In this document: piece by piece, positions 27,691 through 62,205 of the stretch
Layout of the letters: the number at the start of each line of letters is the position of its first letter
Position numbering within the stretch: the stretch's first letter is position 1
DNA from: Nymphaea colorata
Taxonomy: Eukaryota > Streptophyta > Magnoliopsida > Nymphaeales > Nymphaeaceae
NCBI RefSeq assembly: GCF_008831285.2
Contig: NC_045149.1
Coordinates: 19,917,035-19,981,034 of the forward strand
Reading direction: 5' to 3'
DNA: 64,000 bases
Notes under the pieces: model-generated
Seen by the model: only the letters and a program-made list of their open reading frames with translations
What the model was told of the DNA's origin: nothing
Databases searched by the model: none
Made by a program: the position numbers and the translations under genes

Positions 27691-29146
27691 TTGAGAAGTT
27701 GGTATGACAGTTGCTCACACCAGCTTATACGCCATGACAGACAACCACTTAAGTTGAATTGGAACCATTTGAGTTTGATTAAATTAAAACACTATTTTTT
27801 TAAAGTAAAAAACTAATAACAAAAAAACAGGGGAAAAAAAAAAAGACTGCAAAAATGTTTCGGTGGTTGTTTGATGGGTCCAAATCTTTGACCGACCTGA
27901 AATGATCCGACCCGTTGAAAGCCGGTGCGACGGTGCACGTTGAAGGGCAGGAAAAGGCAACCATGTTCTGTATGCTTCGGAAAAAAAAGTTGTTTTTGCA
28001 GGATGAATATCTAAAATTGAATATTACAAATGTTCCCGGAAAAAAAAAATTAAAATGAATATTTTATAAAAGTACTCTAAACAGGCTTGTTTCAACATTT
28101 TATATATAACTGTTGAAATTAAGGTGTACCTCACTTAAAACAAAGCAATTAAGCAAGTAGTAAATGATTTTATTCCATAACCATTTGTGATCCAATACAT
28201 AAAGAGTGGATTGAAAATGCAACCGATTTAATAACACAATTTGTTTCATTTGCAACTCACTTGCAATTGTTGGGGCAAGAGTTGGTAGACAACTAATCTT
28301 TATTTCGAATTCTTGTAGCGTCAACCTTTTATGTTATAAATAATAAGTCACTGATATGTAAGTTGAAGTATAACAAAGAACGAAGCAGAATTCACATGGA
28401 CGATCGGAATAGCCTCCCGCTCATTCAGAATTAAGTTAGGGAACTATTTATTGGATCTCAGTTGGATCCGGATATTCTCAATCTTAATCTCCGAAGCTGC
28501 TTTCGTTTTCAGTTCAGATGTCACACTACGATCCAAAACGCCGATGACTAGGATTAAAAGGAACCCGATCCATTTGAGTGAACCGACCATTCCCGAGCCT
28601 GCGCGAGTCGAGTTCGTTGACCCGTTAACTTGTTGGGAAATTTTTGGCGCCAGCGGGAAGCGCCTGAAACTAGAAGCGGATCACATGATGGCCTACGTCA
28701 TCGCTTTATGTTCTCGTAAAAAGATAACTGTGGGCTCGGAGAAGTTGCCATGTCGTTAGGAATTGGCCAGAGAAGATAAGCGATGATTTAACAGGTGAGG
28801 TGACCTGTCTTCTCTGCCGGCGCCTTTGATTGCGAAGTCGCCTACTTTTCCTTCCGATCGCGTCGTCCTCTTTGCTTCTGGTTGCCCTCCCTTATGGGGA
28901 GTCAACCTTTCGTTTCCCCCTTTTCCTATTTATCAAGAAATTGCAAGTCCACTTCAGGTTTTCTTTAATCCTTATTTACTGGGTCTTCTACTTCTTCTTC
29001 TAGTTGACGATGATTCGACAAGTTGTATTTAAATTTTTTGATCTACCGTTGGAGTTCAAATTTGGGGCCTTGTTTTCGTTGAAGAATGATTATGGATCTG
29101 GTGAGCTAGTGAAATCCGCAATTTGCGGTTATTTAGAGAGATTGAG

Positions 29147-32100
29147 ATGCAAAATACGAGAATTCGAGCGGTTAGCCGGACAGGTCGAGTCGATCTCCGG
29201 CATCATCCTTTGCCTACTGAGGTCGAGCCTTTGGAGTCCGATGATCCTGGGGGAAAAATGAAGGACGGAACGGTGAGGAGGTGCGAGTATCTCGCCGTCT
29301 TCTTCTTCGGAATCGGGTGCTTTTTCCTGGGAACCTACTGGAAATCCCTCGAGTTTCATGTACCGTTCGCGTTAATCGGGAACTCCCAGGACGCCGGATT
29401 CTCTATCCAGAATGACACCGAGAGGGTGGTGGGTCAGTTCTTTCAGGAGTTCCGCAGTTTGTCTGTCTCGGGGGAGAGCGGCGGAGCTCGGATCGAGCTC
29501 TGCCCCCTTCATATGGAGAATTATGTTCCCTGCCGTGATGACTTCGATAGGATTCGCAGCGTTCTGCTTCCTGGAAGGGGTAGGCGGCCGGGGAGGTATT
29601 GTCCGGATGAGAGTGATATGTGGTTCTGCTTGATTCCAGCTCCAAGGAGTTACCGGCAGCCGGTGCCGTGGCCAGAGAGCTTGAACGAGGTAACCGTTCT
29701 CCACTGGATTGTCCTTTCATCTGCAAGACTCCCAACTGAGTTCTCTAAACTGCAATTCTACTTCCTTTTCATCACAATCAAGCGTTAGAAGTGCGCAAAT
29801 GGGTATTCAAGCAAGATGCCATATAGGCTCTGCTGTAATTGAACCAGAAGATTTAAATAATTGTTTGGGATTTTTTTCAAGTTTCTTTTCTCCTAGCATA
29901 TCTAATTTGAAAGCATTTTTCATTTTGAAATTGCATAATTAATGAACCCGTCGGATAGGTGTGGATAGGGAATTTTCCTCAACCAGAACTCATAAGGCAC
30001 GCAGTCAGCAAAAAGTTGTTTGCTTCAAAGGGAGAGAAGATTAAGCGTTTGCAGAATGGAAAGGAGCATTTTCTGTTGCAGTTTTTCCATAAACTGGCTG
30101 AGGTATCTTAGATTCTTAATGTCATTTCCTTTTGTTCTTGGGTTCGGGCTATTTTCTTCATCTAGCAAGCATCTTTACTTTTTGTTGTGGAGTTCTAAAA
30201 CCGTTTTTATCCACTCAGACAGTTCCTGATGCAAAGCTTGGTGTTCGTATCAAAGCAGCTCTGGAAATTGAAGCTGGTTTCAGTGGGGTTGGTGCTGCAC
30301 TCCTTTCTCACAATGTGAACAATCTGTTTATAGCATCAGGAGACGAGCATAAAAACCAAGTGCAATTTGCTCTTGAGCGTGGAATTCCTGCTATGCTTGC
30401 AGATTTTGGGTCGGATAGGCTTCCATATCCCAGCCAAGCTTTTGATTTGATATATTGCTTGGAGTGCAATATCGACTGGGAACGTGATGGTATGCCATTG
30501 ACTTGATCTTCTTTAGTTTTAATTTTATGATTATAATTACTTTAGGATTCTAATTTAGAGTGTAATTTATAAACTTCTTAAGCATGTGGTTGATTGTTTG
30601 TTACTGTAATTATCATATGGATAATCTATAAACGGAAGTTCAATACAGTGTCCTGTAATGATTCTTAAATTACAGGAAGAATAAATGCTTTAATATAACC
30701 TGAGTCAATCCCAAAACAACTTTTACAAATACAAATTTTTAGTGTATTACGTTTTTTGCAACTGCTTCATGCACAATGTACAAGTTATTTTTATCATGTG
30801 TTCATGGTGATGCTCGGACATGCATATTTAGGCACTGACAAGTACAGGTAATACTTTAGAACTTAATAATTTTGTTTTACAATACTTAGGCCGTCTTAGA
30901 GGCTATCTTTAGGTAGAACAATTTGGACTTTGTTTCTTAATTTTAATTGTTTGACTTAATGCTACTTTATGCCATGTGACATTCATTTTCCTTGCAGCTT
31001 GCATGTTTTCATGTTCGCAGGTAGCCATATCATGTGTCCATGCATCTGCAGACTTGAAAGACTGACTCTATTATGCCATGTAGGTGGGATCCTGCTTCTT
31101 GAAGCAAATAGAATGTTGCGGGCTGGTGGTTATTTTGTTCTAGGGGTGGAACTTCCACTGAGGGAGAGAAACTTTTGGACTGGTATATCTCTATATTGTA
31201 CAAATCTCATCACATATCTCATGAGAACTGAATGTTTGTTGCAAATTTTTTACTTAAATGTTTTTCTTTTTAGCTCTCAAATGCTCCCCCAGAAAGGGGT
31301 GCCATCACATCCATTTTGTAGTTCAATAATTGTTCAGTTGAATTCATCTGAATAAAACTTTAATCTTTTGTCAGATATGAATAACATAACAGAGCGGATA
31401 TGCTGGTCACTTGTTGAAAAGCAAGAAAATATCAGGTTCTGGAAAAAGCCTTTTAACAACATTTGTTACACCAGTAGAGGTGCCGGCGCACAGCCCCCAC
31501 TCTGTGACGCGTTAGATAACCAGGATGACGTATGGTAAGTCTTGATTTCAAAAGCTAAAGTTCTTTTGCAAGCTAGCACACACACACAAACAGTCTGAAT
31601 TAGTTCAAACTTACACATGCATGGCTTACACACACACATAATTGTCAAGAATGTTTGCACTTACCTCAATATGACTGAATAGGATCGTCTATGAAAACAA
31701 TAAAAATACATGCACTGAAGCGTGTAAAAACTAATTGACAACAAATTGGTTACAGACGACACTTTTAAATACAAGGAGGCGAGTATTGATCTTCATATAT
31801 GTATGTGGCTTATTCTGGTTCTTGCTATCAGATGCTTTATTGTGGTTTTTCGTGTGAAGGTTGATGTGCCATTACAAGCCACTATTGCAATTTTAGGGAA
31901 AATGGTTACTGCAGACTTTGTTTTTCCTTCTGAGAAAGGGTTCCTCTATAAGCACCCAAAATCCTTCTTCTCCTTCTTGTATGACTGTCACTCTCAGATA
32001 ATCAAAAGCACCCTGAAGTCTGAATCAAAGTGTTAAAATCACTGAATAGATATCAATAGTTTGCATAAGTGACTTTATGCGGATTAATATGGAATCTCTC

Positions 32101-33050
32101 ATGTCATATTCGTTCAAGTTGTTTTTCAGGTATGTGAAGTTGAAGAACTGCATTACTCCACTACCTCAGCATGCCGTGATAACCTCTCCACTGAAGCAAT
32201 TAACTTCTTACTTTTCTGTACCAAATCGTTTGAATGATGTGGAGATAGAAACCCATTTGTCAAAGTCCATGACATTCAAAGCCGAAGCAAGCTATTGGAG
32301 GATGGTAGTAAATGGTTATCTTAGCCATCTTGGATGGAAAGATTTTAAGTTCCAAAATGTGATGGATATGCGGGCAGGCTTTGGAGGGTATGTGCTTTTC
32401 CTATTCTATTTTGCAAATTTAGGATCATTAGCATATAATTTTAATATGAAACTTTGGAAGTACCTAAAAAGTTCAGAGTCAGTTCGTTAATGCATTTGAA
32501 AATTTAGCACTAGGTTCTGACGTTTGACGTACGCCAACTCTTCAAAATGGTCCTCTAGTGATAGAAATGCATAATATTCATTGAGAACTCCCTTCCTTTT
32601 GTCATTATTTTTAATGTAATTACCATTTTACATCTCTCTCTCCCTCTTTTGCTCTCTCACATCGACCCCTTGTTGCTGTTCCAGATTTGCAGCAGCATTA
32701 TATCAGACAGGCATGAAGTGCTGGGTGATGAATGTGGTTCCTATAAGTGGGCCCAACACACTTCCTGTAATTTATGATCAAGGATTTATTGGTGCCATCC
32801 ATGATTGGTACTGCTTCTGCTTATAATGCACATTTTCCAAGACATTTCTTTTATTTGGCACTAATGACATTTGTTCCATAAATAGGTGTGAGCCCTTTGA
32901 TACATATCCACGAACTTATGATCTTATCCATGCGGCGGGAGTTTTCTCTGCAGAGAATAAGAGGTAATTTAATTATTCATTCTCAAGAAGTGTGTATGAA
33001 GGTCACCTACAGGCACCCTCTGCCTGTCTCTATGTGTTTCTTTTGTGTGC

Positions 33051-33081
<31 letters not shown>

Positions 33082-33417
33082 GTAATCGATTCCCTTTTAA
33101 ACCCATTCTCTTTTCTCCGTTTGGCCAATTGGCTTCGTGGAGTTGTCAGTGTTAATATCACTTCCTGTTTAAAATGGTGATGCAAATGACTTTTCCTTGA
33201 CTCCTTCAGATGTGAGAAGATAGTGATTCTAATCGAAATGGATCGGATCTTACGTCCTGGTGGACGGGCTTACATAAGGGACTCACGTTCCATCCTCGCA
33301 GAAGTTGAAGTGCTAGCAAAGCTGGTTGGATGGAAAGCGGTGATGGTCAAGACACATGAAGGAATTTATGGCGACTCAATGGTTTTGATTTGCCAAAAGT
33401 TTTTTCTACATCTCTAA
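29147..33417 (+). CDS. PMT10/11/12-like putative Golgi methyltransferase (DUF248 family)
   Basis: Predicted type II Golgi membrane methyltransferase of the plant PMT family, implicated in methylation of wall polysaccharides such as pectin. Nine exons, all GT-AG: 29147-29689, 29959-30102, 30219-30489, 31084-31182, 31375-31534, 32130-32387, 32685-32807, 32886-32963, 33210-33417. Together they give an unbroken 627-aa protein. A short basic tail is followed by one membrane anchor (about residues 46-62: [15 protein letters not shown]). Family blocks follow: [60 protein letters not shown] (about 320-337), [51 protein letters not shown] and [10 protein letters not shown] (about 568-577). The closest recalled pattern is Arabidopsis PMT11/12. 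It is odd in SAM motif I, which reads LEIEAG (244-249) instead of the usual LDxGxG. It is shorter than most relatives. The start is chosen at the first in-frame ATG; a second Met at residue 38 is possible. Confidence 0.9.
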
Positions 33418-36400
33418 TAGTTGTCATAGTGTCATGGGGTGTTACAATCAGGAGAATATAAACAGATGGCGAGGCAGTTGGATGCAATTTTTTCTCCCGA
33501 TTGTTCCTGAAACAGAGCAAAGAATCACACGGGTTGTATAATTGATCGTATTTGCCAATTATTTACTAACATGATGGAATGAAAATCAATAAGAGCGAAG
33601 GCACGGTTGATTCAATTTCTTTTGCTCAATCCATGTCGCTTATGTGAATTTCACCATGCGTTCTGGCTATGCATCACTGATATTTCATTCAAATTTCTTA
33701 CTGCAGAAGACAAACATGTGATAAAAGGAAGTTTGATGACAAGGGTGAGGTTGACTACCAAGAGGACAACACTATGGGAAAGCTCAAATTGTATAATGAC
33801 AAAGTTCAAAATTAATCAAGCATCTTCTACCTGATGTCCTGCATATTCCCTTCTTACTGCCTGCTCGCCACCCTATGATTTAAAAAGACTTGTGCAAGCA
33901 AGAATCCAAGAGTTTAACGCAATTGGAAGAGGGTACTGAACCTATTGAAAGCTCCTTATGGGTTCAATCCGTATTACATCCTCTTGCTAACTAGAGAAGT
34001 TTGTAGACGGATATTTCGGTAAGGGTTACAGAGGTTCTTAAATTAGAGTGTCGGCTGCTGCGGTCACAGCCTGATGCTGGATTCGTATGTACACCTTGTC
34101 TAGAGAACGTGTGGTCCTTCATATAAAGTACATAATTCCACCGAGCCGAAGATGATCCACTTGATGTGGGTCTGTTGGAGCCGACTGAAACTAGTGTAAT
34201 GTCTCGGACCTAGCAAGCAACGGTTAGCAGGTCACATAACTCCAACTTGAATCTGGCTGAACCTGATTAAGCACTCCCCAATCTTGTCATATGATGAATG
34301 AATTGATTCCTTGCTAGAAGCTCACCCCAAGTTTGTTCCAGTTTTGGTAATTGTGAAATCATGCACTGCGCTGCTTAGTGCCCTTGCTTGCCTCTCTCCT
34401 GTTTATTATGTTGCGTCTGATGGAGGCAGATCTGCAGGGGTAAACACCAATGCGACTAGGGATGGTAGCCTCTTCACGCTTTCTTTAATGGCGATACAAA
34501 ATTAAGCTAGGATGGCCACCATTTGTTCTTCCTGTTCCTGGAACACGATGAAGAGGGCATCTTGTTCCTGGAAGAATCAATCACTTCTAATTCTTAGCAT
34601 AACCCGCCCACCACTACACCAATCCTTTTGAGAGGAGCATGTTTTACCGGATGTCATAAAGCCTATCAATGCTTGAACTTCAACATCAAAGCTTAAACAT
34701 CCTTTAATTTGGAAAGTTTCTGGAAGCAGCACCCATGCTCACGTATTTTCTTTCCACAAACCCAAGTTGGCAACTTATTAGCGAGCATACATATAGCTCA
34801 GTTATGCATTATTACCGACAGTTTTTATGATTTTCTGAAAAAGCTAAGTGCTTATTTGTGGTAGTTGAAAAGTTGAGGGCCTACTTGTTATTGGATTGAA
34901 GGTTAGGTTGTCTTTTGTAATTTTTTCTAAACAAAATGTATACTTTAAAATTTTATATATATATTTTTTGGTCTTCTTAGAAGAACTTTTTTTTTATTTA
35001 TTTATTTAGATAGAAATATTTTGGTCTTTACAGGATCCATGATTTGTTTTGCATAAGGGTGTGCACAGTTTCAGCATTTTGCTTACATAAGGTTAGGAGA
35101 TTGTGACTTCAGACACATGGATTGAAACTAAATTGTATGATCTTTATTGAATATTTAGTATTTATTAATTAAAGTTTAAACAACAAAAGCAAGTTGGTAA
35201 ATACAGCCAAAAATTAGGTTTTGAAGGAAAAACCAGGTTTTATACTTCAATCGAGAATTGAATTTGTACGAAACTCAATTTTAACAAAAATCTGGTTTTC
35301 ATAAGAAACTTGCATCTTCCCCCTCCTAGTTTTTTAAGTGAAACTTATTTTTATTTTTTTTTGGTCATTTAAACATATAAACCAAGTTTTAAAAATTGAG
35401 TGTTTGATCATGTTAACTGTTACAAAACATATAAAATCAAGCTTTTTGAAAGAGTCATCCAAATGCCATTTGAAGACGTTTGATGTAGGAGTGCGTTTGA
35501 TCAGCATAGAATAAAGTTTCGAAAAAATGTCCGCTACATGTAAAATCTTAATATAAAATCTCAAAAAGTTTCCAGGTATCAACAATGGAAAAGAAAGAAC
35601 AACAAGTGGAGAATAAATTTTCTTTCAGATTCGTCCTTTATTCTGAACTTACCCTGAACTTTATACAGCTCAAGAAGCCAGAAATGAGTGGAATATCTAT
35701 TCATTTTTCAATCGAACTTCGTATAACTGACAACACTAGATTTTTAAAGTTTAGATTATTGGTTGAACCAATTGATTCTATGATGATCAAACATTAGATT
35801 GTATCTGCCATTGAGATGCATAAAAAGTTGAGACACCATTTAGTATTATTCTCTGTGCGCAACATACTGTAAAAAAAAAAATCACATTAAAGGAAATTAT
35901 AAAAGAGAAAAACTAGTTGTTGTTCTGATGCCAGTCTAGCTATCGAAAATGTGCATAAATAAGATTTAGAAATATGTTAACCATGTGGACAAGATTTTCA
36001 TGATTCAAAGGCATGCAGATCCACTACTTAATGGGTCTATTAATTTCTTGGCACAGATAAGATTGTGTGAATTCTGGTGATTTACGGCTTTTAGAACTTC
36101 ATGGTTGGGTTGTAAAAAATCAAATTTAGATATCCAAATGAACTGAGTTTGTAATCAATTTATTGAGTTTCGGTTTATGTAGATAACATAGTTATTATCA
36201 CAAATTGATAACAAAGAGAAATTCTCATAATGGATTTTGGATCCCATCCAAGATTTTCATATAATTTTCTAGAGCCACCAATTCCATCACCAATGGTTCC
36301 TTCACTGCCTAGAGACCATGTCAAGGAACTGCAACTGAACTAAGAGTTATGAACATTAGATAAAATATAAAAAAAATCAGTACAACACTGAAAGAATTTC

Positions 36401-36670
36401 ATTCTGTTTTTGCCATATTACATCAAAAACATTCTCCATTGTTTACACAATGAAAATACAAAATCAACTCAGTCATCCTTTTTAGGACTCCATCGTTTTT
36501 TATAATGCATTTGTTGGCCACGATGCTCTAAAATTTTCCAATCATCCCTAAAAAAATGAAGGAAAAGGAGGAAGAAAGATTATATTAACAGGCACAAGGA
36601 TATTACAGAAGCAAAGAAGAGGGATGCTGAGACAGAGAAAGAAAGAAAAAAAGAAACCTTTGGCTTTCGT
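33418..36670. other. Intergenic region between PMT and CSLD in unit 1; site of the missing M20 gene
   Basis: 33,418 to about 33,640 is PMT 3' flank. 33,640-34,821 aligns with the PMT relic downstream region of unit 2 (46,550-48,388). At 34,821/34,822 the alignment jumps to unit 2 position 54,618, so the 6.2-kb segment carrying the M20 gene is absent here. 34,822-36,670 aligns with the CSLD 3' flank of unit 2. No open frame with a recognised domain was found. Confidence 0.75.
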
Positions 36671-39600
36671 TTAAACCTCTATGCTGCCACCTGAAGATTG
36701 AGTTGAATCAGTGGGAGGACTAATGGTGATCCAGAGCAAGGAGATGATGATGGCAACCAATCCAGACCAGACGTAGACGATGGTGGGCATTCTTCCCCTC
36801 CTTCCCATCAACCCCTTGGCAAAGGGATACATGTGAGCAAGCACCCAGAAGCTGAAGAACACCCCACCGAGCAGCTTGTTCCACTGCGGTATCGTGCTGT
36901 AGATCGTCCTGGAGAACCCGATGGCGACGGCGACGAGGTTGACGACGATGATGGTGAGGGGGGGAATGAAGAGGCTGGTCCACTTCACCACGTAGAGATC
37001 GGCATAGATGTCTTCCTCGTCCTCCGCCGCCGATTTAGAGGTGAGCTTGAAGGAGATCTCAATTCCGGCGACCACCTTAAGCAGTCCCTGCAGCACGGCC
37101 GCCAGGTGGGCGCTGGTGCCGCCTATGAGCCAGAACTGCTCGTTGCGCCACCACTCCTCGAGGCCGATGCCCGACCACTTGACCTCTAGGAGGGAGAGCA
37201 TGGTGAGGGTGAGGGTGATGACGAGGAGGTAGGAGAGGAAGGCGATATTGAGGTTCTGGACGATGAAGTGGCCGGAGAAGAGGGAGAGGGCCGGGAGGAA
37301 GCAGTAGACGATGAGGAAGATGGAGGTGAAGGGGTAGACACAGACGTTGAGGTAGGCGAGGCGCTGCAGGAACTTCATGCGCGAGCTGGCGAAGAGCGCG
37401 TTGTTGCGCGAGAAGAAGATCTCGATCGACCCCGTCGCCCACCGCAGCACCTGGTGCAGCCGGTCCGTCAAGTTGATCGGCGCCGTGCCGCGGAAGGCGT
37501 CGCGCTTCGTGATGCAATAGATGGACCGCCACCCGCGGTTGTGCATCCGGTAGCCGGTGACGACGTCCTCGGTGACGGAGCCGTAAATCCAGCCGACGCG
37601 GTCTCCCCACTCCGTCTTGTCCTCGTACCAGCACGAGATGACAGAGACGGCCTCCGCCACGGTGTTGGCGTCGAGGGGCTGCCGCGGCAGGAGTAGCGCG
37701 CCGGCCGGCCGGCCGTTTTTCACGACTGGGTGGTCCTGGAGAGGGCGGGCCTGGAACTCGGCCACCGGGATGGAGTCCGCGAAGAGGGCAGAGTTGCCGA
37801 AGCGCTTGGGAAGCTCGGCACGCGCCGCGTTGAGGAGCTCGACGTCGGGGCCGAGGGCCGGGTCGATGGCATTGAACATGGAGGAGCACAGGGAGGGGGC
37901 GTGGAGGGGGTGCTTGCTCTGGCCGAAGGTGCCGATGTACTCGTAAGCGCGGGGAGGGTCGAAGCCGTAAACAGCGAAGCGGCGGAAGAAGCAGCCGGTG
38001 CCGACGTAGACGGGGCCCTGCAGGCCATCGAGGGCGCGCATGTTGCCGTCGAAGAAGACGGTGTTGTGGTTGGCGTAGCGGTCGGATGGGTCGATGCCTT
38101 CGAATCGCTGCGGAAATTGGACGTAGCAGATCCGGTCGCCGCCGCGGTCCATCATGAAGCAGACGCCCTCCCGGAGCGCCTGAGAGTTGTAGATGTAGTG
38201 GTCGCAGTCGAGGTTCAGGATGAAGGGGCCATTGGAAAGAATGGCCGAGGCGCGCACCATGGCGTTCATGGCACCGGCTTTCTTGTTGTGGTCGTAGCCG
38301 GGGCGCTTTTCGCGGGAGACGTACACAAACATGGGCACCCGCACGTCCACCCCCGACAGGTCGATGATCTTCTCGTCCGACGACCCGTACACTGGATCGG
38401 GACTCGGCACTTTGGACATCACCTGTGTCATAGGCCGATCAACCAGAATGTCTAATTGATAGGAGATCCCAAATGATTTGATGGGTACCCACTACCCAGT
38501 GAATTTTTTGACTTCCAAATCAAATCATAGTTGGTATAATTGGGATGTTCGAGAAAGAATCAGTATGAAATTACTGATTCGATAATCAATCACTTGTTCT
38601 AATAAATCAGATTTACATGTGGAGACTTTCCATGTTAGTTTTCGACTTGAAAATTAAGATCTTCAAAAAATTCTGCTTCACTTATTCCAGGAATTCATAT
38701 ACTTCCTACTTTAGCTCTTGAGTTGGTTCGTGGTATTTACCTGAAGAATGCCAGCATGGTCACCTTTACTATGATCTTTCGAGGGGGCAAGCCAAGTGCC
38801 AGGCCAATGAGAACCGTCGGCCATCCACGTCGCCTTAAGAACCTTGACAGCACCTTCTTCATCACCACCACCACCAGCAGCAGCGGCTTTTCTCTCTTCT
38901 CTCTTGTTATAGGCATCAGACCTCCTCCTGATGGCATCGGGGAGGCCATTGATCCTCACCTTGAACTCATCATACTCGCGCTTGAGCCTCCTCCTGTCCT
39001 TGACGAAGTCCTGATCCTTCTTGAACTTGGTCGGGTCGCCCTTCTGGGAGAAGTAGCTGTCGGGGTTCCGGGGCTCGATGTTGTGCTTTCGGCAGAAAGG
39101 GACCCACACCTCGGCGAACACCATTGCCTCCGCCATGGCCTCAAAGGTGAGGAGGCTGCCGCCGTCGTCGGAGATGTAGCAGGCGAGCTTCTCGATGGGG
39201 TAATTGACGGCGAGGATGGAGAGGATGGTGTTGGCTGTCACAAGAGGGGGCTCCTTCTCCGGGTCGGCGGTGGAGACGAAGACGTCGATGCCAGGGAGGT
39301 CAGAGCGGCCGGTTGGGTTGGAGGGAGAGGGGGACTCGAACTTGTCTTGGAGGGCGGCCAGGTCGGTGGCGCGGTTGATGGGGTTGAGCTTAGGCATCTG
39401 GTCCAGCACCCACGAGAAGGCGAACCAGATCTCGCAGACGATGGACATTCCCCACAGCCACATGGCATCGGGATTCGGGTGGCTCACCCGCCATGCCAGA
39501 AAGAACATCAGCACTACCAACCGTATCATGATCAACAGCCTGCTTATCGTTTGCATGAGTTTACGTTAACAACAATAAAAATAATAAATTCAGTGTGGAT

Positions 39601-41600: not shown

Positions 41601-41999
41601 GGGGAATGGTGACCGTTGAGACCACCCCATTTTTATCACCCATTGACTCGGGCTCACCGGTCAGGCAAAAAGACAATATTATTGCCTTTCCTTTATGAAA
41701 TTATCCAATAGTCCTCGTCTCGTCTTGCAATTCAAGGCCTGTTTGGTTACCCATAAAATTGGTTTATTTTTCCTAGTCCTGCGGACATCTTATCCCTTTC
41801 TACTCCTTTTTATATAGAATTAGGCCTGGGCCGCCATGGTCCCTGCCCTTCTGTCTCTTGCTCCCTGCTGCTCTTCCTCCGTCTCCCGGAGGGGTGAACG
41901 GCGGCGATTCTGACACTGGACGACTGCCGGAGGATCATCCACAGCGTTGACTCGAACGGCAACGGCTTGGTTGGGTTGGACTTGACAAACGCGACCGTC

Positions 42000-42165
42000 G
42001 AAAGAAGGCTCAACCGGGCCGGGTCGGGCCCGAGCCGAGACCTGGGATATTGGGCCGGGATATCGGGCGAGCCCAGGGTCAGCCCACCTGGGATATTGGG
42101 CCAGGATATCGGGCGAGCCCAGGGTCAATGGGCTGACCCCGCCCGATGCCCACCCCACACCCACA
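42000..42165. repeat. GC-rich 48-bp tandem repeat in the CSLD upstream region
   Basis: CCTGGGATATTGGGCC(G/A)GGA followed by TATCGGGCGAGCCCAGGGTCA occurs twice with a period of about 48 bp, flanked by GGGCCGGGTCGGGCCCGAG. It belongs by composition to the GC-rich dispersed family at 12.6, 14.6 and 18.7 kb. It is not seen at the matching place in unit 2 (about 62.5 kb). Confidence 0.7.
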
Positions 42166-48388: not shown

Positions 48389-48450
48389 AGTAAGAAACAA
48401 AAGGAATGGCATGCACTGCACCTTCTGAGGACCCGCCGCATGCCTGCAGC

Positions 48451-51400
48451 TCAGTTGGCAGCTTCTTCCAATCGGGAAATAATACTGACAAAGATCCTGA
48501 AACCTTGCTCCATATCAGGAAGAAGGCAATACTCATTCTTTGCATGGTAAGTTGACATCAAACCTGCAGATACCAAACCACCAAGAGAATCATGTCCACA
48601 ACCAAGATATTACCGAGCAGAGAGAGAGGGAGTTCTAATTCAAAATGGCAGATGGTACTGTGAAAATGTAAGACCATGCCAGCAACGAGAAGAAAGCAAA
48701 AAAACGGCATCAAACAACATTAAAGATGACATATAACGACAGTAAAACTGGTGCATTGGACAAAGCATCAGAAAAAGACACCAAGCTTGACTTTCTGTGA
48801 AAACAAGAAAAACACAGCAGCCAGAAAATCCATGAATCGACCTGGTCTGAAGTGGCTAAAAAATTTAAAAAGGGAATCCTATGCTCAAAACTAACTAAAT
48901 ATGAAGGCAATCTGGGTTCACATGCATTCTTTCAGTTGTAGCTAACGTGATCAGCTTGTCAGTTGTGTCAAACAGATTACGCCAATCTCAGTCACAAGAT
49001 TTATTGACTTCGGTTGGTGATGACATGAATGGCTTCAATCTGTTGTGAATACATAAGCTTCAAATTTTGATAATAGCCAGACAGATGTATATAATTCACT
49101 TGGTGATCCAATTTCATTTTCTCCTCGTGCCACATATATCCATGAACTAATGTCCAGAGTATATCAGAAACTGCATGATTCAGGGAATATCAGGACATTT
49201 TTAGTTCATGGCAAAGCTTATTTCCTGGTCTCCAGAATAATACGTACCATATCCTGCAGTTTGAACATCAAATCCTTCATCCTGAGAATCAAATGAGAAA
49301 CGTCAAAGGCTTGGAGATCTATAAGTCGGTCAACAGAAATATGATTGGTAATTTGGTACTAACCTGTAACTCTCGAATCAAAGGCAAGCTCCCTGTGATA
49401 GAGTATGGCTTCACATACCCAACAACTTCCTCTGTAGCTTTGCATAGAACGTGATAACCAAGAGAGTCAAGACTACATGCAACTCCTGGCTTCATGTCCT
49501 CATCAAATGTGATATGAAGTCTGAAGAAAATAAATAGGGTTAAGGTCATGGTGAAGAGCACGCAAACGAAGAATAATTTCAGAGTCCGAAGATGGACCTT
49601 CCTGTTAGATTTTCTTCAAGAACAACATATTTTGAGACGGGCCCTCTGGTATCCAGCTTCTCTATATTGTTATTTATGTCATCCACATATTTCTCCAATT
49701 TCTTTGTGACATCTATTGGGCTGGAGAAAACAAAAATACATCCATAAGTTAAACAACTTCTGATCTCAAAGCATGTCAATAGGTGCCTAAAAACATATCT
49801 AGAAATGGAGACAACAGAAGAGAAGACAGGCTTTTCAATGACAATTTCTTGCAAGAAGAAAGCTTAGGAGTGCAGCACTCAAGGTGTGGAATACTTGCTT
49901 GTAGAAGGGTGTCAGCCTGCAAATCAGAAAACAAAATAAACTAAGAAATCAGAATATTAATGACCCAACCACAAAGAAAAAGGAAGAGAAACGATTGTTT
50001 TAGATACCAAAAAATGTACAAGTCCAATGTAAAGATCCAACCCAAAATGAAAGAAAGGTGCCTCGAATGATCAAGTACTGACTAACATGAGATGAAACTG
50101 ACAAATAGACTTAGACTGAATATTTTGATTATGCATTTACTAATAATTCATCAAATGCACAAAATTGTGGACAAAAAGTAAAAGTGAAGATTAGCCAAAA
50201 AAAAAAAAATCACTTACAAGAAAATACACATTTTTCCAAATACAAAGATGAACAAGTAGAAGAAGTGAAGAACAAATATAGTTTTGGCAGAAGAAAGTCT
50301 CACAGTAACAGCCTTAATAGCATCAGGGCTGTAAAAATTGATATTTTGTGTTCATTTAATGTAAAGGTTGCAGCATCTATAGTTTTTTTTTTTTTTTTTT
50401 TTTATGATAAGGAACCTCCAAGGGCTAAACACTTAAAGGGACTGCATGCTAAATGGCTTAAAGCAATTCAATTTCTTAATAAACTTCAGTTCTATATCTC
50501 TTCAGAAGGCATCATATGTCCTTAGAATTTAGCACCTAAATGCTATCTGAAACACAACTTAAAATACCACAAACCTGCAATCTCCTGAAATTGTGCATTC
50601 AGCTGGAATTTGATTCACACCGCCTCCTGGATCTACAAGAAACACAAGAACCTCAGCTCAATCGATTTCATACCTTGGACAAGGAAAGAAGAAAATAAAA
50701 TTCTACATAATAGAACACATACATCCATGGTTTAGAAAGTGAGATGAGCAAGGAGTTATAGCACAAAACTAGTTCTGCTATATAAATTATTGCATTTTTT
50801 CTACTTTTCTCTTATCATTTTTTTATTCTCCAAAAGTCCAGGTATAAGAAAAAGAAGGTTTTCTGCAGTTCACGGAACAGCTGGAGTTTGAAGTCTTTGG
50901 AACCATGAACTAAATATTGTGGCCTTCAAACTGGGCACTTTCTTTCTTATTTAATTTCTTACCAACCAAATTGAGAAAGATGAAGATTAAAATTCCTTTT
51001 TCCAGAAGGCATCCACTTTAACATGGGCTTCAAAGCAAAAATAAATGCATGGTGGTTGACACATCTCATACAAGTAAAAGTCTTTGAACTCAGAAAAGAA
51101 AGAGTATAACACTGAGACGGCAGTATTACAAGTCCATTGTGTTGGCTTCATAGTCGATGGTGTAGCAAACCCGTAAACCTTTTCCATCGGATGTGGAGGG
51201 AAATCTCTATAAAACCGTAATTGGATCTCTTTAAGAGCTTCCATGGCTAGTTCCAGAGGATTCACAGTCTGTACATGTAGAAATATCAGCAATTAATTAC
51301 AAAGGAAAAGCTGCAGATAAGTTACTCGAAGAAGGAACTATCTGACAGTGAAAAAAAAAAAAGCTAACTAGCAGGCAGTTGCTCTGATTATGCACACTCA

Positions 51401-53113
51401 CAAATACCAGCAAAAACTTGAAAATATTGTGATAATATCACAAGAAACAAGTAAAAAGAGAAAGATAAAATTTCTCTTAATATTTCAAAATATCAGCATA
51501 ATATAAAAAATTGAAACAAAAAAAAGGAATTTTTGCAATATTTCGAAATATTGCGAGGTTTTCATGCCCTTTTTAAGAAACAAAATTTTAATTTATTTGT
51601 TTTTCACTTTCTAAATATTTAAAATAGCTATACATTTGTCAATACTTTTGTAACAACATTAGCAAAACATTCTTAACTTCATTTTCTTTATTATTTTCTA
51701 TATGTTCTTCTAATATTTTGAGCTCTTGATGTTTTTCTAAGAAAGATAAATTGTCTGAAATCAGTTGAGAAAAACCTTTCAAACAAGAACCTGAGAACGG
51801 TATTTGTGCCAATGCTATGAAAAATCAGCATGAATTTGGCACTTGGCCAGGTTTCATTCTCACATTTGAACATTATCGATTCAGCCTTCAGGATGCAGGC
51901 AGACTGACACACCACTGCGTCACCCAACTTTCTCAGCATGGTATTCAAATATGAGGAGGGTTAAGATGAACTTCCAAAATGCGTGCATGCAATTGCAGTA
52001 AATAAATCTTAATATGCTTCAGCAGGTAATGCTGAATTTCAGGATCCTAAGCCAGGTGGTTGAGTTTCAAACTTGGGTAGTTGAACAAGTTTAAGAAAAT
52101 GACATCCAGAGTGCAAAGTGCCTTGTAGTCCTACTCTTTTGAATCACAATCACAGTAACGTAGAAGGGAACCGATGAGGAGAGAAGAAGAAACACGAAAC
52201 CTTGTGAGGGAGGCCACTATGAAAAAGTTTCCCAGTCGCTCGCAGTTTCCATGCAATCATTCCACCAGTACCAATGCAAGGTTGTTTGTCCGCTGTATCG
52301 ATCCAAAATCTGTAGGTATGAAGCATAGAATGCAATATCTCATTAATGGTCGACTGTTAATATGTTTCTTACAAAGAAAGCACAGCAAATTCGAGTTCAT
52401 GTCACTTTCTCACTACAATAAATTTTGCCAGATAAAATCCATTGCTTCAAGCAGGATGCTACATTTAATATCTTGAGGAAAGTTAGAAAATGCACCAAAA
52501 GCTTTCATGAACGGGGTTATAATTCACAAAAAAACCCAAATAGCATTTGATGATTCTAAGAAATCATGCGGATTATTACATTATAATGAAAAAAATGTAC
52601 AACAGACTTACAGAGGGCCATCTTTGAGTTTATTAAGCAATCCTGCCGTCACAAGAGCATCCACCCCAACACCTAATATGGATGAGTTTTCCTCATTGGC
52701 AATAAATACAGCAACCACAGTACACTTCAGTTCCGGTTTCACTTGCGCCAATCTTTTCATGAGCTCCGTCAAGAGGGCCACATGCCCCAAACAGTCGGTT
52801 GTACCACGGCCGCGCAATTTATCACCCTCGACACTCAAGCTGAAAGGATCAAAATCCTGTCCAACACCGATTGACAACCACACTGGGTGTACAAAATGAG
52901 CTCAAGAAAAATCAAAATATCAAACCAAATCATAAAATCAAGCAGAAAGATAATATCAGTATGAGTTTTTTGCTCAATTTCTCTTTCAAAAGAATGCTTC
53001 AAATTTCTTTGTTGGCCTTAAAATAACCACTTGACCTTTTATTAGTCTAGACATAAAGTCACTAAGAAATCTCAAATGGGTTTTGCTATTTTTGGGATTC
53101 TACCCCCGTACTT

Positions 53114-53150
<37 letters not shown>

Positions 53151-53477
53151 AACCCAATCATCAGGGTTGGCGGTGACAACATCCATGTGGCTGCCAACGA
53201 AAGAGAGGACCTTGCCGGGAACGGTTCCCGGGTACTCGACTATGAGGTTCCCCCTTCCCTCGACGAAGCTCGCGTGGTTCAGGAGAAGCGGCCCTCCTTG
53301 CTCCTTGCTGTATGGAGCCAGCGCGTCCAAGAGGTGCCTGACCACCCTGTCCTCCTGGGGAACAAGCTCCGGCGGGTTGTTCTGAACGTACCTCGACTCC
53401 CCAATGAGCTTAGAGAGAAGGGCAACGAACGAGTCCCCATCGAGCACGCCCAACTCCTCTTTCAGAGACCCACCCAT
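48451..53477 (-). CDS. Acetylornithine deacetylase-like M20 metallopeptidase
   Basis: Predicted enzyme hydrolysing N-acetylornithine to ornithine (or a related N-acyl amino acid) in arginine/polyamine metabolism; the sequence closely follows the Arabidopsis At4g17830 pattern as I recall it. Ten exons: 53477-53154, 52856-52612, 52309-52201, 51268-51130, 50632-50575, 49916-49899, 49720-49598, 49520-49364, 49281-49248, 48563-48451. They total 1,320 nt and an unbroken 439-aa protein, the family length. Metal and catalytic residues are all present: SHMD (H97, D99), GRGTTD (D129), ANEE (E163-E164) and TYHAKNE (H409). Also visible are WIDTADKQPC, GKLFHSG, YGFATPSTMKPTQW and YPGGGVNQIP. Exon 6 is only 18 nt, and the next intron uses a GC donor (AA|GCAAGT). 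No signal peptide is evident. The only copy in the window lies in unit 2. Confidence 0.93.
53117..53148. repeat. (GA)16 tract at the 5' end of M20 intron 1
   Basis: On the gene strand the intron begins GTTAG and runs straight into CTCTCT, so a length-variable pyrimidine tract starts about five bases after the splice donor. A second CT tract (53,585-53,611) lies just upstream of the start codon in the leader/promoter. Confidence 0.9.
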
Positions 53478-53577
53478 TTGTCCTTTGGCAGAGAGGAAAG
53501 AAAAACGATCACTCTGGTCGGGAGACGCGGAGGAGATTGCCCAATTTCAATCTGAACCGGTTGCAGGAGGGACGAGA

Positions 53578-53611
<34 letters not shown>

Positions 53612-56389
53612 AAAATGAGAATTTCTCGGCCGAGGAGGGTTGCTTCATGATCATAACCCGCATTTTTGCGTGCACACTCTTTCGGGTTGCCGGTCGATAT
53701 CGGCATGGAGTTGCGTGCACATCGCTCTGAAAAAGAAATATTAAAATGTTTTTGCCAATGAAAGTCACAAAAGTCTCATTGTAAAAACGAAATATTAAAA
53801 TGTACGCATAATTCGCAAATTTAACTTTTAATATCAAAACTAACTTTATAAAACATAAAACTAAAATAAATAATAAAATCATCACGCCCGTTGCATCAGA
53901 TGACTAGAGTTGAGACGTCATGGCAGTGGGGCAGGGCCTTGTTCTAAAATACTAAAAATCATAGTTAAATAGAGATAAACCAACCAAGAATTGACAGATT
54001 TAATGCCAGAAATTTCAAGGTTTTCCCTGGATTTTGAAAAAATATAGCATTCAGTTTTGCCTCAAAATCTAGTCAATTGTTGTTGTTGTTGTTTTTTATC
54101 AATTCAATTATTTGTTCAAAGTCAGTGCTCCAAAATGTGCACCAATTTAATCAAGTTGGAAACCCACGTTTGCATCAAAACTCATGAATTGCCCAGAGAA
54201 AAGAGGAAGAACACATAACAACGATTTTCATGAAAATCCAATCGATTTCTCAACGCTTTTTTCTCTAAATCTTGTTTCAAAATCTTCTAAACCTATGTTA
54301 AGACTCGTTGAGTACAAAATGAATTAAAATCGACAGAGAAGATTTTGAGACTCTTGCTTTGGAATCACCGTTGCACACTTTTCAGGCAGGTTTCTGATTA
54401 CAAAACAAAAATTTAACATCTTGATTTCCAACTGCCTAAGAAACGATTACAAATTATAAGTCGAGTCGATCTATCTTGCTTTTCACCCCTTGCACATAGT
54501 GGCAATGCCCCTCACCACATGGGTCCTTTTTGTTTTCCAAATAATTCACTTGAATTTAAAGAGTAGTTTTGTAAATTAATCTTATATTTTAATGTTTCTT
54601 TGTGCAAAGGTGGCTGTTTATGAGTTTTCTAAAAAAGTGAAGTGCTTATTTTGAGGGCCTACTTGTTTTGTAAATCTTTTTAAACAAAATGTATACTTTC
54701 AAAATTTTTATATTTTTTTTTGTCTTCTTAAAAAACTTTTTTTTTTATCTAGATAGAAACATTTTGTTCTTTACACGATGCATGATTTGTTTTGCATAAG
54801 GGTGTGCAGAGTTTCAGCATTTTGCTTATGATAAGGTTAGGAAACTGTGAGTTCAGATACATGGGTTGAAACTAAATTGTATGATTTTTTATTGAATATT
54901 TAGTATCTATTAATTAAAGTTTAAACAACAAAACAAGTTGATAAATACTGCCGGTACAAGTTGGGCCAAAATGGCCGGTGACATTCTGTTCACAGCCAAA
55001 AACTAAGTTTTGAAGGTAAAACCTAATTTTATAGTTCAATCGAGAATTGAATTTGTACGAAACTTAATTTTAACAAAATCTGGTTTTCATAACAAACTTG
55101 CATCCTCCTCCTCCTAGTTTTTCAAGTGAAACTGATTTTTGTATTTTTTTTGGTCGTTTAAACATATAAACCAAGTTTTAAAAACTGAGTGTTTGATCAT
55201 GTTAATTTTTACAAAACTTTATAAAATCAAGTTTTTGAAAGTCGTCCAAATGCCATTTGAAGACGTTTTATGTAAGTGTGTTTGATCTGTATAGAATAAA
55301 GTTTGGAAAAAATGTCCGCAATAGATCACCATTTTCCTGAAAATCGTGCGGGGACTAAACAATGAGAAAATTTTTACCAATATCAAGTAGTGAGAAAAAT
55401 TTTCCTCGGATTCGGATTGGATTAGGGAAAATGAATGCAGAGGCAGAGGCGCCGAGCCACTTATAGAAGCAGATGCATATGACTGGCTTTTCGAAGCCTC
55501 TCTCTCTCTCTCTCTCTACCATGATGCTTAAAGTGAATGAAATCAATGCCTTTATTCTTATGCTTGCATGCCTATTTGCCTTGGGATATTCTTTGCAGGA
55601 AAGAAAAGAGTAGGAGCTTGAATTTTTTCATTAAGAAGGCCGAACTGTAATTTCAAAATTTTAACAAGGAACAAATTAAATTTTGTTGAAATTTGTATAT
55701 ACACTAAGTGATTTTTTTAAAAATTACATGTATTTTTTTTTTTGACATTTTGAAGGGAGCCCAAGGCCCCTGCTGCACCCCTAGCTCGAGGATATCAGTT
55801 AAACAATGTGAGTTAAAGTAATGTCAAATACATCAATAGTAAAAAAAATAAGACTTTAACCAAGCTAATAAACAACTACTTTTATTTTAACTCTATACTG
55901 CAAAAGGAGAGACATTAACATGGAAGCTGAAACATAACAGAGTTTCAGCTCCCAGTCAAGCGATAGGATGAAATGCTCTTCCTGGTCTCCAAATAAATAA
56001 CGAAATATGATATGACCTTCCACATGAAACAACCGCTGCATACTTGAAATAAGTTATGAAATTTCTCTTACATGTTCTAATTGTGTCGGCTGCATCTAAA
56101 ATCTCAATATAAAATAAAAAAGTTTCTAGGTATCAACAATGGAAAAGAAAGAACAACAAGTGGAGAATAAATTTTCTTTCAGATTCGTCCTTTATTCGAC
56201 ATGTTACAAGTTGATATGGCCCTGAAGTAGAATCAAAAGATTTATTTGCATCGATGCCGTAGATACCAGTACTGTTGGCGCCATATCATTCTGTAAAATA
56301 ATATGGTGTCTTAGCTGATAGGGACCAGTGCATTTCGTTTGTAAATCCAGTTACCAAAGTCAGTAACATTTTCCAAACCTGATTTACAT

Positions 56390-56420
<31 letters not shown>

Positions 56421-57605
56421 TGACTTTGGTAAGTTTTTATGTAACACTGTATCATCAAACACCTTTTCCTTCTCCACATGAAAATCAATGCAACGGTCTA
56501 CCGTTACTTTTCTATAGATATGTCGAATTACATGCATGTTTGTCATTCACATTTAAATGTACTGATGTGGTGTAGCTCTTAAAATGGAATTTATTTCAAC
56601 AATTAAAGATAGAGATGCATTTAGTGATGAAATACACTAATATCTTTTGTAGTAAATGTACCCAGAACTGAACTTTATACAACTGAATAAGTCAGAAATG
56701 AGTGGAATATCTATTCATTTTGCAATGGACCTTCTTATAACTGATAACACAAACTTCTTCGGCTTTAGATTTTTAAAGCTTAGATTACTGGATGAACCAA
56801 TTGATTCTATGAAAGTCAAACTTTAGATGGTCTCTGTCATTGATGCATAAAAAGTTGAGACACCATTTAGTATTACTCTCTGTGGGGAACATACTGTAAA
56901 AAAAAATCGCATTAAAGGAAATTATGAAAGAGAAAAAGTAGTTGTTGTTCTGATACCTGTCTAGCTGTGGAAAAATAAGATTTAGAAATATGTTAACCAT
57001 GTGGACAAGATTTTCATGATTCAAAGGCATGCAGATCCGCTCCTTAATGGGTTTATTAATTTATTGGCGCAAATAAGATTGTGTGAATTCTGGTAATTTA
57101 CGGCTTTTAAACTTCATGGGTTGTAAAAAATCAAATTTAGATATCCAAATGAAGTGAGTTTGTAATCAATTTATTGCGTCTTGGTTTACGTAGATAACAT
57201 AGTTATTATCACAAGTTGACAAAAAAGAGAAATTCACAAATTGGATTTTGGATCCCATCCAAGATTTTCATATAATTTCCTAGAGGCCATGTCAATGAAC
57301 TGCAATTGAACTAAGAGTTATGAACATTAGATAAAATATAAAAAATTCAGTACAACAGTGAAAGAATTTCGTTCTTTTTATGCCATATTACATAAAAAAC
57401 ATTCCCCATAGTTTACACAATGAACATACAAAATCAACTCACTCATCCTTTTTAGGACTCCATCCTTTTTGATAATGCATTTGTTGGCCAAGATGCTCTA
57501 AAGTTTTCCAATCATCCTTAGAAAAATGAAAGAAAAAGAGGAAGGAAGATAATATTAATAGACGCAAGGATATTACAGAAGCAAAGAAGAGGGATGCTGG
57601 GACAG

Positions 57606-57636
<31 letters not shown>

Positions 57637-57652
57637 AACCTTTGGCTTTCGT
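53478..57652. other. M20 upstream region and CSLD-pseudogene 3' flank
   Basis: 53,478 to about 54,617 is M20 leader/promoter and AT-rich DNA without a gene. From 54,618 the sequence resumes collinearity with unit 1 (34,822 onward). Two unit-2-specific insertions interrupt it: about 55,320-56,090 (with a TC tract at 55,499-55,517) and about 56,199-56,663 (with a perfect hairpin). 56,664-57,652 is CSLD 3' flank matching 35,650-36,670. No open frame with a recognised domain was found. Confidence 0.65.
56351..56432. repeat. Perfect 16-bp inverted repeat (hairpin) around an AT tract
   Basis: TTACCAAAGTCAGTAA (56,351-56,366) and TTACTGACTTTGGTAA (56,417-56,432) are exact reverse complements separated by 50 bp that includes (AT)n. 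It lies in an insertion absent from unit 1. It could be a fold-back element core, a small-RNA hairpin or chance capture. Confidence 0.85.
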
Positions 57653-60600
57653 TTAAACCTCTATACTGCAACCTGAAGATTGAGTTGAATCAGTGGGAGG
57701 ACTAATCGTGATCCAGAGCAAGGAGATAACGATGGTGACAATCCAGACCAGACGTAGACGATGGTGGGCATTCTTCCCTTCCTTCCCATCAACCCCTTGG
57801 CGAAGGGATACATGAGAGCAAGCACCCAGAAGCTGAAGAACACCCCACCAGCAGCTTGTTCCATTGCCGTATCGGGCTGTAGATCGTCTTGGAGAACCCC
57901 ACGGCGACGGCGATGAGGTTGACGACGATGATGGTGAGGGGCGGAATGAAGAGGCTGGTCCACTTCACCACGTAAAGATCGGCATAGATGTCTTCCTCGT
58001 CCTCCGCCGCCGATTTAGAGGTAAGCTTGAAGGAGATCTTGATTCCGGCGACCACCTTAAGCAGTCCCTGCAGCACGGCCGCCAGGTGGGCGCTGATGCC
58101 TCCTATGAGCCAGAACTGCTCGTTGCGCCACCACTCCTCGAGGCCGATGCCCGACCACTTGACCTCCAGGAGGGAGAGCATGGTGAGGGTGAGGGTGATG
58201 ACTAGGAGGTAGGTGAGGAAGGCGACGTTGAGGTTCTGGATGATGAAGTGGCCGGAGAAGAGGGAGAGCGCCGGGAGGAAGTAGTAGACGATGAGGAAGA
58301 TGGAGGTGAAGGGGTAGACGTAGAAGTTGAGGTGGGCGAGGCGCTGCAGGAACTTCATGCGCGAGCTGGCGAAGTGCGCGTTGTTGCGCGAGAAGAAGAT
58401 CTCGATCGATCCCGTCGCCCACCGCAGCACCTGGTGCAGCCGGTCTGTCAAGTTGATCGGCGCCGTGCCAAGGAAGGCGTCGCGCTTCGTGATGCAGTAG
58501 ATGGACCGCCACCCGCGGTTGTGCATCCGGTAGTCGGTGACGACGTCCTTAGTGACGGAGCCGTAGATCCAGCCCACGCTGTCTCCCCACTCCGTCTTGT
58601 CCTCGTATCAGCACGAGATGACGGAGACGGTCTCCGCCACGGTGTTGGCGTCGAGAGGCTGCCGCGGCAGGAGTAGCGCGCAGGCCGGCCGGCCGTTTTT
58701 CACAACTGGGTGGTCCTGAAGAGGGCGGGCCTGGAACTCGGCCACCGGGATGGAATCGGCGAAGAGGGCAGAGTTGCCGAAGCGCTTGGGCAGCTCGGCT
58801 CGCGCCGCGTTGAGGAGCTCAACGGCGGGGCCGAGGGCCAGGTCGATGGCGTTGAACATGGAGGAGCACAGGGAGGGGGTGCTTGCTCTGGCCGAAGGTG
58901 CCGGTGTACTAAGCGTGGGGAGGGTCGAAGCGGTAAAGGGCGAAGCGGCGGAAGAAGCAACCTGTGCCGACGTATACAGGGCCCTGCAGACCGTCGAGGG
59001 CGCACATGTTGCCGTCGAAGAAGACGGTGTTGTGGTTGGCGTAGCGGTCGGAGGGGTCGATGCCTTCGAACCGCTGCGGGAATTGGACGTAGCAGATCCG
59101 GTTGCCGCCGCGGTCCATCATGAAGCAGACGCCCTCGCATGAAGCAGACGCCCTCGCGGAGCGCCTGAGAGTTGTAGATGTAATGGTCGCAGTGGAGGTT
59201 TAGGATGAAGGGGCCGTTGGAGAGAATGGCGGAGGCGCAATCCATGGCGTTCATGGAGCCGGCTTTCTTGTTGTGGTCGTAGCCGGGGCGGTTTTCGCGG
59301 GAGACGAACACGAACATGGGCAGCGGCACGTCCACCCCGGACAGGTCGATGATCTTCTCGTCCGGCGACCGGTACACCGGATCGGGACTCGGCACTTTGG
59401 ACATCACCTGTGTCATAGGTCGATCAACCGTAGTTTTAGAACATCTAATTGGTAGGAGATCCCAAATGATTTGATGGGAACCCTATGAGTTTATTGACTC
59501 ATAAATCGAATCATAGTTGGTGGATTTGAGATGTTCAAAAGAGAGCTCTTGAGTTGGCTTCTGATATTTACCTGAAGAATGCCAGCATGGTCACCTTTAT
59601 AACCATCCACGTCACCTTAGGAACCTTGACAGCACCTTCTTCATCACCACCACCACCACTAGCAGTGGCTTTTCTCTCTTCTCTTGTTATAAGCATCAGA
59701 ACGCCTCCTGATGGCATCGGGGAGGCCATTGATCCTCACCTTGAACTCATCATACTCGTGCTTGAGCCTCCTCCTGTCCTTGACGAAGTCCTGGTCCTTC
59801 TTGAACTTGGTCGGGTCACCCTTCTAGGAGAAGTAGCTGTCGAGGTTCCGGGGCTTGATGTTGTGCTTCCGGCAGAAAGGGACCCACACCTCGGCGAACA
59901 CCATTGCCTCCGCCATGGCCTCGAACGTGAGGAGGCTGCCGCCGTCTTCGGAGATGTAGCAGGCGAGCTTCTCGATGGGGTAATTGGCGGCGAGAATGGT
60001 GTTGGCTGTCACAAGGGGTCTCGAACTTGTCTCAGAGGGCGGCGAGGTCGGTGGCGCGTTTGATGGGGTTGAGCTTAGGCATCTGGTTCAGCACCCACGA
60101 GAAGGCGAACCAGATCTTGCAGACGATGGACATTCCCCACAGCCACATGGCGTCTGGATTGGGGTGGCTCACCCGCCATGCCAGGAAGAACATCAGCACT
60201 ACCAACCATATCATGATCGGCAGCCTGCTTATCGTTTTCATGAGTTTACGTCCACAACAATAAAAAGGAAAATTCAGTGTGGATCATAATGGCTTTGGAG
60301 TTTGAAAAATTTGGTTGCTATCCCGTAAAATTTTCTACTTTAAATGGTTCTTCAATTTTATCGCTCAAGCTTTACATTTTTCTTGACTGATTCGATTCAA
60401 TCTGGCGGAAACTATAAATCATTTTAGCCAAATGATGCAATGGAGAAGCAGGAAGAACTGCCGATAAATAATCTTGGCTCACCTGTATGGGCTTAGAATT
60501 GAAGGTGGAATGGGGATCTTCCTGGTCAAAGGTTTCGAAGGCTTGTCCAGGAAATCAGCCATGCTAACGTTCATAGCATCATCGTCGACCACACCGGCGC

Positions 60601-61108
60601 CAGCGCGGTACCCACCAGCTTCGCCGAAGGGCCAAACGGCATTCCCTATACCATAGGTCCCCTTCGTCTCAAACAGCCAGCGGTTGTGGTCGAAGTCGTT
60701 GGTCTGGCTTCTCAGCAATATCCGACGGTCCATCTTGCCACTGGGCTCGCCGCTCGCGCCGTCCTCGCCTGCAGCCCCCCTGCCACCTTCTCCGCCTTGG
60801 TAGGATGAGTTCGAGCCATACGCTGGCTGGGCTTCCTCGGCCTTCACCGCCGAGTACTGCTCTTGGAACATGGGTTGGTTGAACGGCGTCGGTGGCATCA
60901 TTACCGTGTAGTTGACGAAGTCGGAGGAGGAGAAGTCGCCAGAGAGGCTGTCGTCACGGTTGAGGCTCATGACCCGGCCTCTCGACGTCCGGCGGGCAAA
61001 CTTTACCGTTGGGGGAGGTCTGGGCGGAATGGACTTCTTGGAGGGGGAGTTGTTCAGCGCCGGTCGCGGGAGTCGTGCTTGGTAGGACAGGGACGGGCCA
61101 CTTTGCAT
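57653..61108 (-). pseudogene. CSLD5-like pseudogene, duplicate of the unit 1 CSLD
   Basis: The same three-exon layout as 36,671-40,338 is recognisable. Exon 1 (from ATG 61,108) is open and keeps a continuous N-terminus (SKKSIPPRPPP, KFARRTSRGRVMSLN), but lost the [10 protein letters not shown] segment. Lesions downstream: about 90 bp missing near 60,017 (removes the [20 protein letters not shown] region), a small deletion near 59,995, DDGG changed to EDGG, CAG to TAG stop at 59,824-59,826, about 70 bp missing near 59,600, DCD changed to HCD at 59,192-59,194, a 19-bp tandem duplication (59,120-59,157) shifting frame, a deletion/frameshift near 58,910, TGG to TGA stop at 58,608-58,610, TED changed to TKD near 58,549, and a 1-bp loss near 57,850. 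Three catalytic motifs are mutated, so it cannot be a working synthase. Confidence 0.95.

Positions 61109-62156: not shown

Positions 62157-62205
<49 letters not shown>

Follow-up and report, generated by a model that had tools for sequence, protein, structure and literature searches.

Probable tandem duplication-random loss of a PMT-M20-CSLD block in the nuclear genome of Nymphaea colorata

A stretch of 64,000 nucleotides of the nuclear genome of Nymphaea colorata (NC_045149.1, positions 19,917,035 to 19,981,034; hereafter the window) contains two tandem units, between which one PMT gene, one M20 gene and one CSLD gene have survived. Did an ancestral block of all three genes lose one copy of each after its duplication, or did M20 enter one unit only afterwards, and how firmly does the distribution of the survivors lock the two units together?

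Self-comparison of the window yielded 13 direct matches of at least 150 bp, 12 of which paired unit 1 with unit 2 at 83 to 95% identity; the remaining one was a local repeat (25181/25360). The preliminary description had placed the duplication at 28800 to 61108. A duplicated block does lie there, but the true units reach wider (Table 1). The joint between the units has a 5-bp microhomology because TGCAG is common to all three unit ends. Three genes (PMT, M20 and CSLD) were recognised per ancestral unit, and the longest other open frame in the list of open reading frames for unit 1 was 134 aa. Unit 1 also holds, at 25181 to 25508, a 175-bp tandem repeat in 1.9 copies, for which the repeat finder gave no counterpart in unit 2. 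A stretch found only in unit 2 (47382 to 47853, 472 bp) was considered as a repeat and rejected, having merely three short partial matches elsewhere. To the left of the block, a gene at 1011 to 5370 has long open frames on the minus strand; three of these gave no Pfam match, and one presumably carries a PHD-like stretch.

Table 1. Positions in the window of the duplicated units, their genes and the traces of gene loss
Feature	Position	Strand	Basis or remark
Unit 1 of the tandem duplication	23289..42753	+	Self-comparison of the window
Unit 2 of the tandem duplication	42749..63159	+	Self-comparison of the window
Duplication joint	42749..42753		5-bp microhomology TGCAG, common to 23289-23293 and 63155-63159
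Intact PMT (Methyltransf_29) gene, 9 exons, 627 aa	29147..33417	+	Gene model and Pfam
Exon 1 remnant of PMT in unit 2 (first 103 codons)	46241..46549	+	Unit comparison
PMT deletion scar in unit 2	46547..46549		CGC microhomology; counterpart of unit 1 29456-33636 absent
Open CSLD (Cellulose_synt) gene of unit 1, 3 exons, 1,024 aa counted from Met40338	36671..40338	-	Gene model and Pfam
Unit 2 CSLD pseudogene, stretch homologous to the coding part in unit 1	57653..60970	-	Indels and stops
Intact M20 (ArgE/DapE-like) gene, 10 exons, 439 aa	48451..53477	-	Unit 2 gene model and Pfam
Stretch in unit 2 absent from unit 1, 6,228 bp, with M20 gene and most of the repeat	48389..54616		Unit alignment
M20 3' flank, remnant in unit 1	34723..34822	-	Matches 48289-48388, 95%
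Truncated end of the dispersed repeat in unit 1, ~108 bp	34824..34931		M20 deletion breakpoint at its left edge
Unit 2 repeat with inverted-repeat arms, upstream of M20	53749..54684		Both ends approximate

The PMT gene model of unit 1 has GT-AG splice sites and encodes 590 aa if counted from the second Met. Its Methyltransf_29 domain is complete, as expected of the PMT family (PF03141), with a full-length Pfam match (profile positions 1 to 506 of 506, 1e-156). Unit 2 retains the 3' flank of PMT as well as the exon 1 remnant, so that remnants lie on both sides of the scar, where 29455/46549 is joined to 33637/46547. The loss of PMT from unit 2 was shown to be a plain deletion of 4.2 kb. Within the common part of exon 1, 11 of the 103 codons differ between the units (8 nonsynonymous and 3 synonymous), changes that are not assignable to either unit without an outgroup. 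All genome matches of at least 85% to the PMT protein, among the 77 matches listed, fell within the window, and no close PMT was found elsewhere in the genome: every match outside the window was at most 65% (best 70 of 132 candidates scored).

The CSLD gene of unit 1 matches PF03552 (E=0), and its Cellulose_synt domain stands closer to plant CslF/CESA than to the cellulose synthases of bacteria. The gene is a putative member of the CSLD (CSLD5) clade. Over the 1,025 codons compared, the unit 2 copy shows 11 indels, of which 7 shift the frame, and is interrupted by three in-register stops (codons 239, 340 and 706); it is identical to the unit 1 copy at 2714 of 2877 positions. Ka and Ks between the two copies were 0.035 and 0.137, respectively (928 of 1,025 codons, gapped and stop codons being dropped). 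When the changes were polarised with the CSLD paralogue on C4, 13 nonsynonymous and 30 synonymous changes fell to unit 1 and 54 and 23 to unit 2 (Fisher p 4e-5), with 34 of the 154 differences left unpolarised. Branch Ka was 0.0048 for unit 1 and 0.0304 for unit 2 (928 codons). These measures were used in place of branch-specific Ks, which with the C4 outgroup is near saturation and for unit 2 has a bootstrap range reaching below 0. The unit 2 CSLD has lost constraint. A rough mixture estimate from the counts, with mutation bias ignored, puts it without constraint over about two thirds of the period since duplication.

Some further features of the CSLD genes were seen. Upstream of Met40338, the unit 1 gene differs in frame from both unit 2 and the C4 paralogue at 40338 to 40430 (alignment by eye), which is either a slight N-terminal shortening or an assembly error. 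Other CSLDs have a cysteine-rich RING-like stretch in the N-terminus; this seems to be missing from the proteins of 36671-40338 and of C4:26089764-26092832. In addition, the C4 gene has no second intron.

The Ks of the CSLD copies bears on whether the two units might be haplotypes that were placed in tandem by assembler error. The assembly does consist of 783 contigs. However, a Ks of 0.137 was judged to lie far above allelic divergence, and on this ground the artefact was dismissed. In addition, the window contains no N, the joint is a clean microhomology and the large deletions differ between the units. We give such an error almost no credence.

The M20 gene model of unit 2 has nine introns, one of which is GC-AG; the GC donor lies at 49893 to 49899, and the frame of the model depends on its use. 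Pfam Peptidase_M20 and M20_dimer domains in the protein place it among the ArgE/DapE-like M20 deacylases. It did not qualify as an acetylornithine deacetylase (NAOD), scoring 72 bits with TIGR01892 against a cut-off of 297.7 (NCBIfam). The best NCBIfam family was TIGR01910 (114 bits, cut-off 217.6), and the protein fell below the cut-off in all of the families shown (25 of 35), whose models are for bacteria and archaea. The enzyme name is therefore not established. The gene is presumably the orthologue of Arabidopsis At4g17830. Effects of At4g17830 on ornithine level, flowering and seed set have been reported (PMC4520006).

No match to M20 was found in unit 1 by tblastn of 33418 to 36670 at E up to 5. 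Genome-wide, no other intact M20 was found: eight of the nine matches are exons of the unit 2 gene, and the ninth, which alone lies outside the gene, is a piece of exon 1 on C11. This piece (C11:20238699-20239072) includes about 105 bp of the 5' leader, has 89.7% DNA identity and has lost the start codon; no other M20 exons were found in the 50 kb read around it. It is a dead partial copy of M20. As a donor of M20 it was rejected, since it covers only 53206 to 53582 of the window, leaves about 1 kb at the end of the 6.2-kb stretch uncovered and lacks the start codon.

The preliminary description had assigned PMT and CSLD without M20 to unit 1, and an intact M20, a deleted PMT and a dead CSLD to unit 2, with no gene intact in both units. 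If intact is read as an open gene model, this distribution was confirmed: PMT and CSLD are open only in unit 1 and M20 only in unit 2, where the other two have been lost through the large deletion and through frameshifts and stops, respectively. Beyond the window, the whole-genome searches found four other CSLD-like loci (main block identity: C4, 79%; C12 at 21.1 Mb, 78%; C1, 77%; C5, 72%).

The direction of the M20 event can be read from a dispersed repeat. The left edge of the 6.2-kb stretch absent from unit 1 lies 63 bp behind the M20 stop codon and its right edge lies inside the repeat; 34824 to 34857 of unit 1 aligns with 54617 to 54651 of unit 2. Genome searches that started from 53583-54650 and 53650-54950 yielded 37 and 39 matches, respectively, the window's own included, and the repeat was found on C1, C2, C5, C7, C8, C11, C12 and C14. 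In the second search, 11 of the 39 rows end at 54650 to 54656, the site of a small gap in unit 2 when compared with unit 1 and other repeat copies. The end that is missing there is present in unit 1. This truncated end aligned to eight of the 12 repeat loci searched (best 87% over 109 columns, E 4e-33), with no match in the other four. The match starts at the breakpoint (34822 to 34824) in five of the eight loci and 13 to 31 bases inside it (34837 to 34855) in the other three. All eight also match unit 2 to the left of the breakpoint, from 53941-53978 on. Unit 1 carries the end of a repeat cut at the breakpoint, which argues that the repeat stood in the ancestral block and that M20 was lost from unit 1, because an empty site would hold no isolated repeat end. 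As shown by this remnant, M20 appears to have been deleted from unit 1 rather than inserted into unit 2, and one deletion would suffice. The joint left in unit 1 has a common GT and two extra T (by eye). The ancestral order PMT-M20-CSLD, as previously proposed, is thus supported as the likely one by evidence from within the window, where the unit 1 breakpoint cuts the repeat that adjoins M20 in unit 2.

Could M20 instead have been inserted, with flanking DNA, into unit 2 after the duplication, unit 1 being the original empty site? Pieces of M20 have been copied before, as the C11 fragment attests, and a related block on C4 likewise has no M20. Such an insertion would need the exact completion of the truncated repeat, of which unit 1 holds the last part, cut precisely where the difference between the units starts. 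Moreover, no target-site duplication was seen by eye at the ends of the 6.2-kb stretch, this stretch begins immediately behind the gene, and no intact donor copy was found in the genome. We regard an insertion as very improbable.

The block on C4 (C4:26074014-26097792) is collinear with 6256 to 67018 of the window, the final 3 kb being in the downstream flank, through three anchors: short matches at 6.3 to 7.7 kb, CSLD and a C2H2 zinc-finger gene. It has one CSLD, an open paralogue that is the nearest of the four CSLD-like loci. The 30 kb read contained neither PMT nor M20; when the 14 kb to the left of the C4 CSLD were searched permissively at the protein level, nothing better than E 0.8 to 20 was obtained for PMT and M20, and a permissive DNA search of C4 against C12 gave four short matches that place neither gene. 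As an outgroup for gene order C4 is uninformative, since both genes are missing, and it neither supports nor refutes the order proposed. Ks between the C4 and C12 CSLDs was 1.3 to 1.4, near saturation, compared with 0.137 for the tandem copies, so the C4-C12 split is far older than the tandem duplication. A whole-genome-duplication peak has been published at a Ks of about 0.9 (PMC7015852). The C4/C12 block pair probably derives from the Nymphaealean whole-genome duplication.

Taken together, tandem duplication-random loss (TDRL) of a PMT-M20-CSLD block in the nuclear genome very probably explains this locus. The ancestral block would have held PMT on the plus strand, M20 and CSLD on the minus strand, and the dispersed repeat upstream of M20. 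It was duplicated in tandem with the 5-bp microhomology at the joint, after which one copy of each gene was lost independently: PMT from unit 2 by the 4.2-kb deletion, M20 from unit 1 by a 6.2-kb deletion from just behind its stop codon into the repeat end, and CSLD from unit 2 by small indels and stops. In this way the order of live genes would have become PMT-CSLD-M20 from PMT-M20-CSLD with no gene having moved. We infer that selection guards all three survivors.

How locked is the duplication? The earlier statement that neither unit can be removed without the loss of a gene is literally true, and the case is stronger than was claimed. In the product of a single unequal crossover, the part before the exchange comes from unit 1 and the part after it from unit 2. 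The four possible products retain M20 only, PMT and M20, PMT only, or PMT and CSLD, and none keeps PMT, M20 and CSLD together. The survivors lie by turns in the two units (unit 1, unit 2, unit 1), so neither the dropping of a unit nor a single crossover retains all three. The loss of the unit 1 CSLD might, however, be buffered by the C4 paralogue and the other CSLD-like loci.

Among the eight possible loss patterns, two leave all genes in one unit and six are interdigitated; one crossover rescues four of the eight, and the observed pattern falls in the four that are crossover-proof. The lock is therefore a one-in-two outcome under random gene-by-gene loss, and the pattern itself is not surprising. 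These counts also bear on whether the alternating survival was adaptive, with copies kept, for example, for separate regulation. The gene models are open in all three survivors, and the repeat upstream of M20 could have changed its promoter, but patterns as frequent as these need no adaptive cause, and we consider one highly unlikely.

TDRL and DRL have been described in animal mitochondria as the tandem copying of a block followed by the loss of one copy per gene, with pseudogene remnants and possibly a new gene order (PMC5745709, PMC5122201). As in those genomes, a tandem block of several genes is present here in two copies; each gene is down to one functional copy, functional meaning an open gene model only; remnants persist as PMT exon 1 and the CSLD pseudogene in unit 2 and the M20 3' flank in unit 1; and the order of functional genes has apparently changed relative to an ancestor whose order is read from the two units alone. 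Unlike the mitochondrial cases, this is a nuclear plant locus with units of about 20 kb, introns, large intergenic DNA and a repeat, and all three losses still leave visible remnants.

Reciprocal gene loss, or divergent resolution, is usually described between species or homoeologous chromosomes. The locus resembles it in that the surviving copy differs by gene, and differs from it in that both copies lie in cis on one chromosome. The C4/C12 pair resembles fractionation after whole-genome duplication, with C4 retaining CSLD without PMT and M20, whereas the tandem event was later and local, as the Ks values above indicate. The locus is a clean nuclear example of TDRL, i.e. of reciprocal loss in cis, and is of a kind already known. 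No earlier report of this locus was found in a limited survey, mostly of titles and abstracts, on TDRL, reciprocal loss and tandem or genome duplication.

As a single locus it is an illustration and not a new process. Its value lies in being a readable intermediate of nuclear TDRL, whose joint, two large deletions and pseudogene can still be made out, and in which the repeat sets the direction of the single ambiguous event, that of M20, without an outgroup. It also opens to a genome-wide test the question of which patterns of loss allow a tandem block to return to a single unit and which of them lock it. Blocks whose survivors lie in unit 1 first and in unit 2 after can be collapsed by one unequal crossover and those of the unit 1, unit 2, unit 1 kind cannot. 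Crossover-proof patterns should therefore be over-represented among tandem blocks that have lasted long. That this block survived by virtue of its pattern is a tentative suggestion that we hold to be possible but doubtful. If true, such a crossover sieve would fix local gene-order changes in nuclear genomes.
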